Origin: Lachnospiraceae bacterium
Lineage (GTDB): Bacteria > Bacillota > Clostridia > Lachnospirales > Lachnospiraceae
Assembly (NCBI GenBank): GCA_011960625.1
Contig: BLMJ01000009.1
Coordinates: forward strand, 1 to 64,000
Direction: 5' to 3'
DNA length: 64,000 nt
How positions within the stretch are numbered: position 1 is the first letter of the stretch; each line of letters opens with the position of its first letter. The translations under genes and the position numbers were made by a program. This document shows, one piece after another, positions 31,761 to 39,328 of the stretch. The notes beneath the pieces were generated by a model. It searched no databases. It saw only the letters and a list, made by a program, of their open reading frames with translations, and was not told where the DNA came from.

Positions 31761-32386
31761 ATGGGGATGGGATCAGAGAATAAGAAATCAGAAAAATCTA
31801 AGAAACAGGAAACAAAACAGGTAGAAATCAAAGAGTATATTAGAGGAGCGGGAGGCAGCATTGTCAGCAAGTCCATTTTGAACGGGACATCAAAACTGAA
31901 ATGGTTGTTTCGGGACGACAGCGGACATGGGAACGGATGGATTGCGTTTGGCGATACCGATACCCAGGAATACGTAAACAACGCGGAAAATATGGCGGTT
32001 GTAGATTTTAATATCCTTGCAAATATTGAGCCAACAGTATTGAATGTATATTACATGCCAGTAGGAAGCGATTTGGAATTTCGTTCGGACAAGACACGGA
32101 AGCAGAATACCGAGAATTTTTTGAGCAATGGCAGGGGGAGAATCCGGATAAGAATAAGTATATAGACTATTTTGCAATGCTTTTTAAAAACAGCTATAAA
32201 AAATATCCTGAGGTTCAGAATGAGTGCGCGAATTTTCTGCAATGGGAGATTCCGGGAACGGGAAGTAAACTGACGCTCTTTTCCAGCGGAATGGGAGATG
32301 GGGTTTATAGCGGATATTGGGGGTTGGATGAACAAGGCGAACCTGTGTCTCTGGTAGTTCCGTTTATGAATCCTGCATATTTTTAA
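31761..32386 (+). pseudogene. DUF2185 (Imm33-like) immunity-type protein split by an apparent frameshift
   Basis: 31761 ORF (LKWLFRDDSGHGNGWIAFGDTDTQEYVNNAENMAVVDFNILANIEPTVLNVYYMPVGSDLEF) continues in the -1 frame from about 32087 as GQDTEAEYREFFEQWQGENPDKNKYIDYFAMLFKNSYKKYPEV... into the 32177-32386 ORF. Confidence 0.7.
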
Positions 32387-32885: not shown

Positions 32886-32932
32886 AACCTTATTTAGGGG
32901 ATGTGCTAAAAAGGCATCCCTTAAATAAGGTT
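32886..32932 (+). other. Hairpin downstream of the permease-like gene
   Basis: aaccttatttaggggatg / catcccttaaataaggtt, 18-bp arms with one G-U; no U-tract. Confidence 0.75.
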
Positions 32933-33018: not shown

Positions 33019-33435
33019 ATGTCATTTACCATTTATGTGAGAATGAAGAAGCCGGGTAAGGGAATGAGTAGGGATTTAGAGCCAACGCCTTTCGTCCTGG
33101 ACAAAAAACCGGAAACTTTGCGGGAGCTGTTGACGGGGCTTACTGAGGTTGGAGTAAGGGATTTTAACGCCAGAAAAGACGAGGGGCAGCTTCTTCCTTT
33201 CCTTACGAAGGAGGAGATTGCAGGGCAGGCATTAAGGGGCAAGGTGGCTTTTGGCGTCCATGGCGGGGAAGCGGCAGAGCCTAAGAAGGCTGTGGCCAAC
33301 ACGCTTCAGTGTTTTGAGGACGGTATTTACCGTGTGTTTGCCGGGGATGAAGAATTAACAGAGCTTGAAGGAGAGATCTTGTGGAAGGAAGAGCTGGTAT
33401 TTACGCTGGTTCGGCTTACCATGTTGGCGGGTTAG
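33019..33435 (+). CDS. Uncharacterised 138-aa protein, possible ubiquitin-like/beta-grasp fold
   Basis: RBS ggagg; N-terminus FTIYVRM...PFVLDKKPETLRELL and C-terminus YRVFAGDEELTELEGEILWKEELVFTLVRLTMLAG. Confidence 0.75.
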   Translation: MSFTIYVRMKKPGKGMSRDLEPTPFVLDKKPETLRELLTGLTEVGVRDFNARKDEGQLLPFLTKEEIAGQALRGKVAFGVHGGEAAEPKKAVANTLQCFEDGIYRVFAGDEELTELEGEILWKEELVFTLVRLTMLAG

Positions 33436-33494
33436 CTGGTGAGTTGGTGCAAGGGTGAGTTTTGTGCATTTTTTAAGATAAGAAAGGAAAAATC

Positions 33495-36400
33495 ATGGCG
33501 GAATTTACATATGAGTCAAGGAAGAAAATAAGTGAAACCTGGGTGTATGGCCTGAGAGAGAAGGGGACGCATCTTTCCGGGCATGAGAAGAAGCTGCTGC
33601 CGGAAATCTATGGTACGATTATACCTTCGGAGGTATGCATTTATATGCGGAAACTTCTGGAAAATGGGACTTATCGTACGCTTAGCGGCCTATACAAGGG
33701 CGAGTTTTCCGGCGCGGTAAAGCTCTGTGTGCCGGATGGGTGCAGGGAGGAATTTTATGAGGCGCTGGATGGGATGAACCAGTACCAAATGACGGCGGGG
33801 TGGTACAGGAGAAGCCTGCGCTCTAAAAGTTATATCCCTTTTGCGGAGCAGAGTATCCGGCTTCTGAGGGCCTATGCGCTTTTGGATTTTTATAAAGCAA
33901 GCCTTTCGGAGGTACTGACCGGGAAGGTGCCGCCGGAGATTTTCGACCATGCAAGGAATGAATGTTTTTCTTATGCGGAAATGCTGGCGGCGCAGATTGA
34001 CCGAGGAAACAAAGAAGCCCTCCAGGCGGTAAAGGACATTCTGCTTGGGGAGGGAAACACGATGATGATAAGCCATGAGCTGATCCGCGGAATCGTGATG
34101 TGCAGGAACGAAGATTTGTATGACCTCCTTGGCAGGTTCCTTTTGGCGGCAAGGCTTCAGGAGGGGGCGAGACAGGCGGTCTGTGAGACCATGGACGCCG
34201 GTCGGCCGGAGGCTTTTTTGCATCTGTTTGAAGTCATTGAGGAGCATAATCTGATTCGTTTTTCTTCGGTCAGACGTGCGGCTGCAACCTGGATCGGTAT
34301 TTTTAATGAGAAAAGCGTAGATCGGATGAGTGAAAAACTGCTTAGGCTGATGGGACAATGCCTGCGTGACGAAGATTTCTGTAACGCCCAGCTTTCTTCG
34401 GAGGATTCTGTGGGGATTAGCTGTGCTTTGTGGGCGAAGGGGTTCTATGATGCCAGTAATGCCGTGGACGCCGTATGCCGCCTGATTGCCCATGGGACCA
34501 GGCATCAGAAGATGACGGCTTCGTATTTTGTCCGTTCGCTGCAAGACGAAGGGTTAAACATGAGGGTTTCAAAAGAGGTGATTTTAAATTGTTCGGAGGA
34601 TTTGGAGCTGACGGCTTGTTTCATGCCGGGATTCATGGGGACGGTGAACAACTATTTTTACAGCCTTGTGAAGCCGGAAAACAGCAATTCCTATTCTTTC
34701 CGCGAGAATAAGGTGGTAGAGCCGAGAAAGCTTCCTGTGGAGGAGTTTTTTGTCAATCGGGATGAGGCTTTGCGGTATTATAATATTTTAAAGGGAATTT
34801 TGAAGAAACTGCCTAAGAAAGGGCTGGTTATCTCCCCCTGCATTTTCCCGTGGCATCAGGTGTCTCTGGGACCGTCGGGGATTGCCGCGCGGCTTTGCCT
34901 GATAGCCTGGATGCTTAAGGATGATGTGGTGTTGGATGAAGCGGCCGGGTTTATTCCTCTTATAGGGCAGGGAGAAGGCTACAATTACTATAACATGTCA
35001 CGGGCTGCGGCCGCGCGGCTTTTGCTTTACCGGCCTAAGTCCGCGGCAAGAAAAAAGGTCTTGTTTGAGCTTTTGCACAATGCGGAGGAATATACCAATG
35101 AGGAGGCGTATCGTCTGGCGGAGGATATGGAGCTTTTGGCGGAGGACTTCGCTGCGATTGAGAAGAATCTTAAGTATAAGAAAGGCCGGCAGGGGACTCT
35201 TGCCCTGCTTCGGAAACAGGATAAGAAGGAGCTTTCGGCCTGTATTGCCAGACTTCTTGGGGCAAAGTCGGAGGAGTGCCGGATGGGGGCCCTTGACCTT
35301 GCCTTATTCTTGAAAAAAGAGGATGGGGAATGTTTTGAGGAAATCCGTCCCTGTCTTCGGGAATTGTCTTCCCCCAACAAGAAGGAGCAGGTGATTTTAG
35401 AGGAGCTTTTAGGAGGAGCAGGCGCGGCGCAGGATATTTTGAATACGCCGGGATTTGGATTATATGACACAGAGCGCAAGTGGAGCCTGCCCCCCATGAC
35501 CGCGGCTTGTGATAGGGCGGAGGGGTTGTTTGTCTACGGAGAGAAGGCGTGCAGCCGTGTGTGTCAAAAGCTTGACCGCTTGATTGAGGAACATGCCACC
35601 CTTTCTTATAAGACGGCTTGGGGCGCTGACAGGCTGCTTGGCAATGGACTGCAGAACTCGCGGTATATCCATGAAGATGCAGATGCCCAGCCCTTAGATG
35701 CGTATCCGTTCCGGGAAATGTGGGAAGAGTTTTATAAAAAAGAGATTGGGTCGCCGCAGCTGCTTCTGGAGATAGAGCTTTACGGGCAGTGCCGCCGGCA
35801 GCGGGATGATTATGTGCAGAACTATAAGTTGTACCGGAAGGTTTTCGGAGACGAAAAGAAGCTGATGTCTCAAAATTCTTTCTCCGAATTGTCTTATGCC
35901 AGCCAGGTCTGGACTGTGATTTCCGTGCTGGCAGAGCAGTTTATTACGGATAGCGAAAGGGCTGAGTTTGCCCTTTCGGGGATGGCAAAGTTTCTTGACG
36001 TGCTGGATACGTCCAGTGATATTTTCACGGTTCAGTACACACAAAGGGACGGCGAGGTGACTACCTATACAAAGCGTACGGCGGATCTGCCGGTCTTTGC
36101 CGATATGACAAGATGGCTTGCCCTTTCGGGGAATGTGGACTGGGGGAGTGCATTTACCTTACGGTTCTGGCTGCAGGAGCATTATCGAAATCAGGCGGAC
36201 CGGGAAGTGAAACGGCAGTATTCTTATGGGGGTTCTAAGGAGGTTTATCTTGAGCTTTCGGACTATGTGGAGTGCTTCGCAAGGGGCGTTTGGGACAAGG
36301 AGTTGTTCTATAAGGCTGTGTTCTTGTTTGCGGATTTGGGGTGTCTTTTAGATTCGGTCAGCACAGTAGAGCAAAGAGGGGCGGTTTCTTCGCGGACGGC

Positions 36401-38639
36401 GCGGGTGTATGCGCTGAATAATTTCTTTGGAAATCAGGTAATTAAGCCTGTGGACGGAAAATACTGCTTTGATTCTTTGAGGGATGAGATGCCGAAGATG
36501 GCGTTTGCCCACGAACTGTATGGGGAGCTGATTCCTCTGGTCTTGGAAGTGGAGTTAAAGCGCGGGGAGCAGCCGACGCCGTTTTCAGCGTATGTACATA
36601 AGATTCGGGTGGTGTACGGGATTGATTATATGGTTCAGATTTTGACGGCGTTGGGGAAGGAGCCGCTTAAGCGTGGATGTTATTATTATTCTTCTGCAAC
36701 GGACCGGCAGTCTGTGCTGAGCCATCTGCTGAAGGTCTGTGCGCCGGGGTCAAAAGAAACGGCGGCAGATTTAAAGCGGGCGCTTAAAGGGACGGATATT
36801 ACAAAGAAGAGGCTTGTGGAGCTTGCCATGTACGCCCAGCAGTGGATTCCCTTGGTGGAGGAGTATCTGGGTCTTCAAGGTTTTGCAAGCACCTGCTATT
36901 ATTTTATGGCGCACACCAGCGAAAGGTTTGACGAGCAGGTGACTTCTGTGATTGCGAAGTACACGCCCCTTTCTCCGGAGGAGCTTTCAGACGGGGCTTT
37001 CGATATTCACTGGTTTTTTGAGGCTTACGAAAATGTAGGGGAGAAGGATTTTAAGCTGCTTTACGATGCGGCGAAATATTCTTCCGGCGGAACGGCTCAC
37101 AGCAGGGCAAGAAAGTATGCGGATGCCGCGCTTGGCAAGGTTGAGCTTAAGTCTCTTATGACAGAGATTGATGCGAAGCGTAATAAGGACCTGCTGATGA
37201 GCATCAGCCTTCTTCCGCTTTCCAAAGGGAAGGCAAAGCGTGAGAGCGAGCTTTTAGAGCGTTATCAGTTTATCCAGAAGTTTAAGAAGGAAAGCAGGCA
37301 GTTTGGGGCCCAGCGTCGGGCGAGCGAGGGACGCGCTGTAGAGATTGCACTGCAGAATCTCAGCGTCAATGCAGGTTTTACGGATGTGACCCGTCTTGTG
37401 CTTCGGATGGAAGGGAAACTTACGGAGATGTCGTCTGCGTATTTTGACTGGCAGAGTGTGGATGGGCTTGAATTGATGGTTTCTGTAGATGAGTGGGGGA
37501 AGAGTTCGCTGAAATGCAGGAAGGACGGCAGGCTTTTGAAGTCTGTCCCGGCGAAGTATAAGAAGAATGAGATTGTACAGAGATTTCAGGAGGTTCATAA
37601 GAAATTAAAGGAGCAGTACAGCCGGACGAAGCTGATGATGGAGCAGGCCATGGAGGACCGGACGGTGTTTGAAGTGTGGGAGCTTCGGGAGCTTGGGAGG
37701 AATCCTGTAGTGCGGCCGATTGTGGAGTTTTTGGTCTTTCGGACTGCGAAAGATACGGATACCTTTCAGATGGGCTTTCTGACAAAGGATGGCCTTTTAG
37801 ATGCGGCGGGGAAGGTGCTGCCGGTAAAGCCGGAGGAGAAGGTATGGATTGCCCATCCCTTTGATTTGTATCGGAGCGGACAATGGCAAGAATACCAGAA
37901 AGTCTTGTTTGAGAGGCAGATTAGGCAGCCCTTTAAGCAGATTTTTCGGGAATTGTACCTGAAACTTGACGAGGAGTTAGAGTTATGTGAGTCCAGACTG
38001 TTTTCGGGCAACCAGATTCAGCCTCAGAAGACGGTGGGGGCGCTTAGGAGCCGCCGATGGGTCGCGGACTACGAGGATGGGCTTCAGAAGGTCTATTATA
38101 AGGAGAATATTGTTGCCTGCATCTATGCTATGGCTGACTGGTTTACGCCAAGCGACGCGGAGGCGCCGACGCTTGAGTGGGTGGTGTTCTCTGATCGGAA
38201 AACCGGAGAGCGGCTGCGGATTCAGGAGATTCCGGAGGTCATTTACAGTGAAGTGATGCGGGATGTAGATCTGGCTGTGAGCGTGGCCCATGCGGGCGGC
38301 GTGGATCCGGAGACGAGCCACTCCACTGTGGAGATGCGCAAAGCAATCGTTGCCTGCAATTTGGAGTTGTTTAAGTTGAAAAATGTTCAGTTGGAGGGAA
38401 ACCATGCGGTGATTGACGGGAAACTTGGACGGTATTCGGTGCATCTAGGCAGCGCGGTGGTGCATCAGATAGGGAGTTCTATGCTGTTTGTGGTTCCTGT
38501 ACACTCCCAGCATCGGGGGCGGATGTTCCTGCCGTTTATTGACGACGACCCTAAGACAGCGGAGATTCTGTCGAAGATTCTTCTTTTTGCGGAGGATACG
38601 AAAATAAAGGACCCGAATATTTTGGCGCAGATTCGGTAG
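33495..38639 (+). CDS. Giant 1714-aa DUF4132-type (MolR/YehI-like) protein
   Basis: C-terminal WIAHPFDLYRSGQWQEYQKVLFERQIRQPFKQIFRELY, GRYSVHLGSAVVHQ, FLPFIDDDPKTAEILSKILLFAED; RBS aaagg upstream. Confidence 0.8.
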   Translation: MAEFTYESRKKISETWVYGLREKGTHLSGHEKKLLPEIYGTIIPSEVCIYMRKLLENGTYRTLSGLYKGEFSGAVKLCVPDGCREEFYEALDGMNQYQMTAGWYRRSLRSKSYIPFAEQSIRLLRAYALLDFYKASLSEVLTGKVPPEIFDHARNECFSYAEMLAAQIDRGNKEALQAVKDILLGEGNTMMISHELIRGIVMCRNEDLYDLLGRFLLAARLQEGARQAVCETMDAGRPEAFLHLFEVIEEHNLIRFSSVRRAAATWIGIFNEKSVDRMSEKLLRLMGQCLRDEDFCNAQLSSEDSVGISCALWAKGFYDASNAVDAVCRLIAHGTRHQKMTASYFVRSLQDEGLNMRVSKEVILNCSEDLELTACFMPGFMGTVNNYFYSLVKPENSNSYSFRENKVVEPRKLPVEEFFVNRDEALRYYNILKGILKKLPKKGLVISPCIFPWHQVSLGPSGIAARLCLIAWMLKDDVVLDEAAGFIPLIGQGEGYNYYNMSRAAAARLLLYRPKSAARKKVLFELLHNAEEYTNEEAYRLAEDMELLAEDFAAIEKNLKYKKGRQGTLALLRKQDKKELSACIARLLGAKSEECRMGALDLALFLKKEDGECFEEIRPCLRELSSPNKKEQVILEELLGGAGAAQDILNTPGFGLYDTERKWSLPPMTAACDRAEGLFVYGEKACSRVCQKLDRLIEEHATLSYKTAWGADRLLGNGLQNSRYIHEDADAQPLDAYPFREMWEEFYKKEIGSPQLLLEIELYGQCRRQRDDYVQNYKLYRKVFGDEKKLMSQNSFSELSYASQVWTVISVLAEQFITDSERAEFALSGMAKFLDVLDTSSDIFTVQYTQRDGEVTTYTKRTADLPVFADMTRWLALSGNVDWGSAFTLRFWLQEHYRNQADREVKRQYSYGGSKEVYLELSDYVECFARGVWDKELFYKAVFLFADLGCLLDSVSTVEQRGAVSSRTARVYALNNFFGNQVIKPVDGKYCFDSLRDEMPKMAFAHELYGELIPLVLEVELKRGEQPTPFSAYVHKIRVVYGIDYMVQILTALGKEPLKRGCYYYSSATDRQSVLSHLLKVCAPGSKETAADLKRALKGTDITKKRLVELAMYAQQWIPLVEEYLGLQGFASTCYYFMAHTSERFDEQVTSVIAKYTPLSPEELSDGAFDIHWFFEAYENVGEKDFKLLYDAAKYSSGGTAHSRARKYADAALGKVELKSLMTEIDAKRNKDLLMSISLLPLSKGKAKRESELLERYQFIQKFKKESRQFGAQRRASEGRAVEIALQNLSVNAGFTDVTRLVLRMEGKLTEMSSAYFDWQSVDGLELMVSVDEWGKSSLKCRKDGRLLKSVPAKYKKNEIVQRFQEVHKKLKEQYSRTKLMMEQAMEDRTVFEVWELRELGRNPVVRPIVEFLVFRTAKDTDTFQMGFLTKDGLLDAAGKVLPVKPEEKVWIAHPFDLYRSGQWQEYQKVLFERQIRQPFKQIFRELYLKLDEELELCESRLFSGNQIQPQKTVGALRSRRWVADYEDGLQKVYYKENIVACIYAMADWFTPSDAEAPTLEWVVFSDRKTGERLRIQEIPEVIYSEVMRDVDLAVSVAHAGGVDPETSHSTVEMRKAIVACNLELFKLKNVQLEGNHAVIDGKLGRYSVHLGSAVVHQIGSSMLFVVPVHSQHRGRMFLPFIDDDPKTAEILSKILLFAEDTKIKDPNILAQIR

Positions 38640-38727: not shown

Positions 38728-38776
38728 ATATTTTAATGATAAAGTTTAAAAACGTTTTTATGGAGGAGATTTGGTT

Positions 38777-39025
38777 ATGGCAAGTATTTTACCGGTTTCA
38801 GATTTGAGAAATTATAATGAAGTATTGAAAAAATGCCAGATAGGTGAGCCTGTATTTCTTACTAAAAATGGAAGGGGTCGTTTTGTAGTAATTGACATAG
38901 CTGATTATGAACACGAACAGGCTGAGAAAAAGCTTTTGATGAAGCTAAAAGAAGCGGAAGATGCTGTGAAGGATGGTGAAGGATGGCTGAGCCTTGACGA
39001 AGTGAAAACTATGATGGGAGAATAG
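38777..39025 (+). CDS. Phd/YefM-family antitoxin
   Basis: ILPVSDLRNYNEVLKKCQIGEPVFLTKNGRGRFVVIDIADYE; ggagg RBS. Confidence 0.9.
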   Translation: MASILPVSDLRNYNEVLKKCQIGEPVFLTKNGRGRFVVIDIADYEHEQAEKKLLMKLKEAEDAVKDGEGWLSLDEVKTMMGE

Positions 39026-39028
39026 TTT

Positions 39029-39328
39029 ATGGTAAAATTGCGGATTAATCCATTTGTGGTAGGCGATTTAAAAAGTATACGCAATTATATTGCAGAGGAT
39101 AATGAGGAATATGCGGCAAGGACAATTGAAAAAATTTATGGTAGATTTGAGTATATCCAAATGTTTCCTAGTATCGGTGCGCCGCTTTCAAAAAGAGTTC
39201 ATTTTCAAACGGATTATAAGTATGTAGTTTGGGAGAATTATGTAATTATATATAAGGCCGGAGAAGAGTATGTAGAAATTTGCCGGGTTCTAAATCGGTA
39301 TCAGGATATTGGAAGACTCTTTGATTGA
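39029..39328 (+). CDS. RelE/ParE-family toxin
   Basis: INPFVVGDLKSIRNYIAEDNEEYAARTIEKIYGRFEYIQMFPSIG...YVVWENYVIIYK; 3 bp after the antitoxin. Confidence 0.9.
   Translation: MVKLRINPFVVGDLKSIRNYIAEDNEEYAARTIEKIYGRFEYIQMFPSIGAPLSKRVHFQTDYKYVVWENYVIIYKAGEEYVEICRVLNRYQDIGRLFD

Follow-up and report, generated by a model that had tools for sequence, protein, structure and literature searches.

The DR_A0165 and DR_A0166 genes of Deinococcus radiodurans form an operon regulated by DdrO, with a DdrO motif reported for DR_A0165 (PMC8533742). After mitomycin C treatment, the level of the DR_A0166 protein was reported to increase only when IrrE was present (PMC8533742). Zhou et al. described the peptide DR_A0165 as occurring only in Deinococcus and as having no DdrO motif upstream, and found it to bind the thioredoxin Trx1 (PMC9650054). 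Its deletion raised survival of H2O2—a phenotype complicated by a complemented strain more sensitive than the wild type—and left DR_A0166 expression, followed by RT-PCR, unaffected (PMC9650054). In that study, a structure prediction for DR_A0165, made independently of the present one, was found to resemble MOCS2A/MoaD, SAMP1, and 1WGK.

A DUF4132 domain is also present in the MolR-type protein YehI of Escherichia coli. Unlike DR_A0166, YehI has no small partner encoded upstream; yehL, yehM, yehP, and yehQ, with MoxR AAA, VWA, and SWIM genes, lie alongside yehI instead. With respect to small ubiquitin-like proteins, those of the Hub1/UBL5 type are described as acting by binding and without covalent conjugates (PMC4141198).

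The fold type reported below is already known, with a MoaD-like prediction for one family member in print (PMC9650054). In the open-access literature other than bioRxiv, no description was found of the extent of this family, its pairing with DUF4132 proteins, its diglycine (GG) tail, or the repeated loss of GG; of the open-access papers searched, three name DUF4132 and none names DUF5724. Although DUF4132 proteins occur widely, no mechanism has been assigned to them, and a dedicated ubiquitin-like partner makes their function directly testable, to which the presence of a GG tail in some phyla and its apparent loss in others contribute. Furthermore, a stress peptide published as "Deinococcus-specific" is recast as a member of a multi-phylum family.

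The gene pair and its surroundings

The window, that is, the whole 64,000-nucleotide stretch analyzed (positions 1 to 64,000 of contig BLMJ01000009.1 from a Lachnospiraceae bacterium), contains two ORFs on the plus strand at the positions given in the preliminary description. The first (33019..33435) encodes a 138-residue predicted ubiquitin-like beta-grasp protein, an assignment drawn from the ORF list, a 61-sequence alignment (A1), AlphaFold2, and Foldseek; the second (33495..38639) is co-oriented, begins after a gap of 59 bp (33436-33494), and encodes a giant protein of 1714 residues. The giant has the architecture DUF5724-DUF4132-DUF7737, all encoded on the plus strand. The DUF4132-like C-terminus proposed earlier was borne out by Pfam matches to DUF4132 (PF13569, residues 1345-1522, 37527..38060; E 2.2e-42, 145.4 bits against a gathering cut-off of 27) and DUF7737 (PF24879, residues 1612-1713, 38328..38633; E 4.3e-36), and the match to DUF5724 (PF18991, residues 51-1305, 33645..37409; E 0) covers most of the remainder. 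The small protein gave no Pfam match above cut-off, no NCBIfam or PADLOC match, and no PDB sequence match of note. Its family signature, QCFEDGIYR (residues 97-105; 33307..33333, plus strand), is invariant or nearly so in A1, and its C-terminal tail, MLAG (residues 135-138; 33421..33432, plus strand), aligns with LAGG or LVGG in 27 homologues from other phyla.

A strong 18-bp inverted repeat (32886..32932, no strand assigned; 94% complementary, 11-nt loop) without a T-run separates the pair from the membrane-protein gene upstream of it, and is a possible transcription boundary; an Rfam search gave no match. As had been observed earlier, neither MoxR nor VWA genes lie beside the pair, whereas both adjoin E. 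coli yehI. Indeed, MolR/YehI-type neighbors (MoxR AAA, VWA, and SWIM) were found neither here nor as conserved neighbors of related loci. An Imm33 immunity-domain protein (Pfam E 1.5e-14) is encoded upstream of the pair at 31761-32165, and downstream of the giant gene, at 38771-39328, lie genes for a Phd/YefM-like antitoxin and a ParE-like toxin; this toxin-antitoxin pair was not seen as a conserved neighbor in related loci.

Predicted structures

The AlphaFold2 model of the small protein, built from A1, contains strands at residues 3-10, 23-27, 104-108, 111-113, and 127-132, and helices at residues 34-55, 64-72, and 88-100. The resulting order—strand, strand, helix, two inserted helices, and three strands—is that of a beta-grasp fold in which two extra helices separate the main helix from strand 3. 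The best Foldseek match is ubiquitin (2gbj; E 0.094, probability 0.92, TM 0.59 by target), and the leading matches are mostly ubiquitin-like proteins: DIX, ISG15, NEDD8, Urm1, RBD, MoaD, and archaeal ubiquitin. 5MPO and 1WGK, the latter named in the DR_A0165 prediction, are also among the matches. Thus, the beta-grasp assignment first made by eye survived structure prediction, and the small protein very probably adopts this fold. The strength of the call is moderate, because the mean pLDDT is 74, no Foldseek match falls below E 0.001, and no significant sequence-profile link to ubiquitin was found. The hhalign comparison was not significant with a ubiquitin profile of two sequences, which is too thin to exclude kinship. 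PDB searches with the single sequence and with two profiles (A3 and A4) returned noise only, and there was a single weak match to ThiS (E 0.15).

The family resembles ubiquitin, MoaD, ThiS, SAMP, and Urm1 in predicted strand order and, in members outside Bacillota, in a GG a few residues past the last strand. It differs from them in the two helices inserted after helix 1 and before strand 3, in having no sequence-level link, in not being linked to E1, MoaE, ThiG, or JAB genes, and, for the window copy, in having no GG. Hub1/UBL5 proteins share the predicted ubiquitin-like fold, but their sequences are unrelated and their partners differ.

For the giant, a model of residues 1000-1714 (pLDDT 84) shows an alpha-solenoid followed by an alpha/beta C-terminal region. 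Foldseek returned only weak alpha-solenoid matches for this segment (AP2, importins, and beta-catenin), with no enzyme match and no convincing solved relative.

Conservation of the pairing

A scan of one genome per species yielded 63 loci with relatives of the small protein, nearly all from Lachnospiraceae or other Clostridia, together with one Armatimonadetes-labelled genome. In 61 of these, the giant starts at most 450 bp downstream of the small gene on the same strand; in the other two (L053 and L059), it lies 7.7 kb and 2.5 kb downstream, respectively, likely as a result of insertions. Among 300 genomes sampled from the phylum of the window, the distribution is patchy (8 of the 300), and, the window's own genome aside, all six genomes in which a DUF5724 protein exceeded the cut-off carry the small gene just upstream of it. 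The adjacency is far beyond chance. Other neighbors vary, and none is common to the whole locus set.

Beyond Bacillota, the pair recurs in Bacteroidota, Deinococcota, Actinomycetota, Alphaproteobacteria, and the Armatimonadota-labelled phylum; records of a plasmid collection place it in Bacteroides finegoldii and four Deinococcus species. A lack of conserved adjacency across genomes had been set beforehand as grounds for dropping the link between the two genes; adjacency was found to be conserved across phyla. The Armatimonadota-labelled phylum contains two classes of the pair, one with long DUF5724-type giants and the other with short DUF4132-DUF7737 proteins of about 750-920 residues, the short class also occurring in Novosphingobium and Nonomuraea. 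The small proteins of both classes align as one family (profile comparison, probability 99.2). Exceptions to the pairing are genomes G481 and G361, with a small protein and no DUF4132 hit, and G030, with a small gene and no adjacent giant. No convincing unrecognized small partner was found upstream of MolR-type DUF4132 genes, and no natural fusion of the two proteins was seen among the fetched loci.

The Deinococcus locus L094, with the order trxC, small gene, and DUF4132 giant, corresponds to DR_A0164-DR_A0165-DR_A0166, and its small protein matches the family profile at E ~1e-29. That the pair is DR_A0165 (SEP068184) and DR_A0166 was deduced from two features, the thioredoxin gene alongside and the DdrO motif: the DdrO (RDRM) motif printed in PMC8533742, GGTTATGCTATTTACATAAC, was re-found at L094:5035-5054, 82 bases before the ATG. 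By these sequence comparisons, the statements in PMC9650054 on the missing motif and the Deinococcus-only range conflict with the evidence obtained here. DR_A0165 and the window protein belong to the same family and both lie directly upstream of a DUF4132 giant; DR_A0165 differs in ending LAGG rather than LAG, in being under DdrO control, and in having been published as Deinococcus-specific. The gap between the two genes is 2 bp in Deinococcus and short in many other loci, and the Deinococcus pair has modA in its vicinity. The operon in Deinococcus suggests that the module has a role in the response to stress or DNA damage. A LexA-like box upstream of Bacillota pairs was considered and set aside as too weak, being found in 5 of 55 regions, compared with 1.5% of random 300-mers, and not in the window.

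The C-terminal tail and E1 genes

The window protein ends ...VRLTMLAG. Its ending had been described as a small residue plus Gly, which is exact, though a diglycine is absent. Among relatives from Bacillota, the endings are AG, SG, SGW, GRMW, and similar sequences, with GG in none of 71. Outside Bacillota, 27 homologues ending exactly in ...GG were counted, in addition to that of Nonomuraea; GG termini occur in Deinococcota (the Deinococcus proteins ending ...LLLLRLTALAGG), Actinomycetota, Alphaproteobacteria, and most members of the Armatimonadota-labelled phylum, whose tails are mostly ...LRLVALAGG or ...KLVPLVGG, immediately followed by the stop codon. Throughout A1, the position of window residue 138 is occupied by Gly. 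Even a single Gly can be lost, however, as in L115 (ending RSS) and L197 (ending LEEP).

On a tree computed after removal of the last six residues, and with its root not fixed, the GG label required three changes, as low a number occurring in none of 500 shuffles. Since GG members occur in every major branch except the Bacillota/Bacteroides clade, loss is a simpler reading than gain, and the tree implies, with the root left free, about three losses of GG: in Bacillota plus Bacteroides (the window's clade), in G388 plus G359, and in G499 plus G537. A GG-tailed member, L133 (9679-10068), belongs to G481, the genome mentioned above as having no DUF4132 hit, from which the GG form may have a function without a DUF4132 protein.

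In the Armatimonadota-labelled phylum, a strong match to a ThiF/MoeB-type E1 was found in 18 of 19 genomes with GG and in one of four non-GG genomes linked to DUF4132, with none in G388, G499, and G537 (Fisher p 0.009, from genomes that are related, few, and partly incomplete). The p value was 0.018 with G361 added and 0.003 with Bacillota genomes added. The exceptions are G502, which has GG and no strong E1 match, and G359 and G361, which have an E1 and no GG; in addition, four of eight non-GG Bacillota genomes have a strong MoeB/ThiF-type match. The association between a GG tail and an E1 is no more than suggestive, with kinship among the genomes, their small number, and their incompleteness as confounders. 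An E1 search of the window's 63%-complete genome found none, and the five ThiF-type proteins examined in the window's genus score best against TcdA, below the TcdA cut-off. The earlier observation that no E1, E2, or JAB-type gene is located nearby was upheld for the genes adjoining the pair. Across related loci, no protease, E1, or E2 is conserved beside it, and in a Pfam scan of genes around the GG loci, none of the 25 most frequent of 137 families was an E1, E2, or JAB family.

Proposed function and alternative explanations

The preferred reading is that of a conserved two-gene module in which the ubiquitin-like beta-grasp protein would act as a dedicated partner subunit of the adjoining DUF4132-family solenoid protein. 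Direct binding of the two proteins to each other is predicted and considered quite probable. The GG form, taken as ancestral, may be a substrate for a housekeeping E1 of the ThiF/MoeB type whose gene lies elsewhere in the genome; its tail could then become thiocarboxylated or be attached to a target, perhaps the giant itself or a molecule held by it; the predicted E1-dependent use of GG forms is judged to be evenly poised. In Bacillota and Bacteroidota, including the window organism, GG would have been lost and the small protein would serve mainly as a non-covalent subunit, a role that is fairly likely for the window organism. Taken as a whole—partner subunit, ancestrally activatable by an E1, and non-covalent in the window organism—this combined reading is offered tentatively, with its chances slightly short of even. 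The initial interpretation as a two-gene module, in which a beta-grasp protein partners with or modifies the giant, is partly supported. Of these two roles, that of partner fits best, because the window and Bacillota copies have no GG and often run on (GW, GRMW), and because no E1, E2, or JAB gene was seen beside the pair. A further proposal, which we regard as improbable, is that the DUF4132 solenoid is the dedicated platform, either ligase-like or as acceptor, for a minimal ubiquitin-like pathway in bacteria, in which a GG beta-grasp protein would receive its charge from a housekeeping E1 and be passed on through the DUF4132 protein, with no recognizable E2, upon DNA damage or oxidative stress, the covalent step having been lost and the complex retained in gut Bacillota.

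In UFM1, activation takes place at a single conserved Gly, the residues beyond it being trimmed off. By analogy, the small protein could be a genuine modifier or sulfur carrier in every lineage, the window's included, with its trailing residues trimmed, a single Gly activated, and the DUF4132 protein serving as ligase-like platform or target. The invariance of Gly 138, the short, variable, precursor-like tails past it, and the GG found at the equivalent position in other phyla are consistent with such processing; however, the ThiF-type proteins of the window's genus look like TcdA, no protease, E1, or E2 is conserved beside the pair, and L115 and L197 have not even the single Gly, which makes covalent use throughout doubtful. 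It is also rather unlikely that the pair works as a stress-response device whose small protein would only regulate the stability or expression of the giant, by translational coupling or in a chaperone-like manner, the ubiquitin-like fold having no part in signalling. The control of the Deinococcus operon by DdrO (PMC8533742), the higher H2O2 survival of the DR_A0165 knock-out (PMC9650054), and the closeness of the two genes argue for such a device, but DR_A0166 expression did not respond to the deletion (PMC9650054), and a pure chaperone would not need conserved GG termini.

Other bacterial ubiquitin-like systems are defensive, and the patchy distribution and varied genomic contexts of the pair would suit an anti-phage or conflict system; nevertheless, with no PADLOC match, no phage homologue of the giant found, and no consistent defense neighbors (among the 25 most frequent families in the GG-locus scan), such a role is quite improbable. 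A molybdate or molybdopterin function has its basis in the MolR name of DUF4132 relatives and in the MoaD-like fold matches of both the window model and the DR_A0165 prediction, along with modA near the Deinococcus pair. This function appears very unlikely: non-GG forms could not carry sulfur in the way of MoaD, no molybdenum genes recur among the same 25 families, and moeA and moeB of D. radiodurans were unchanged on DdrO depletion (PMC8533742).

Variant gene orders

In B. finegoldii (L095:3617-5371), the small gene is preceded, at a distance of 7 bp, by a gene for a rhomboid protease. At L074 (2123-13312), a single small gene was observed between two tandem DUF4132 giants, and L092 has the same giant-small-giant order.
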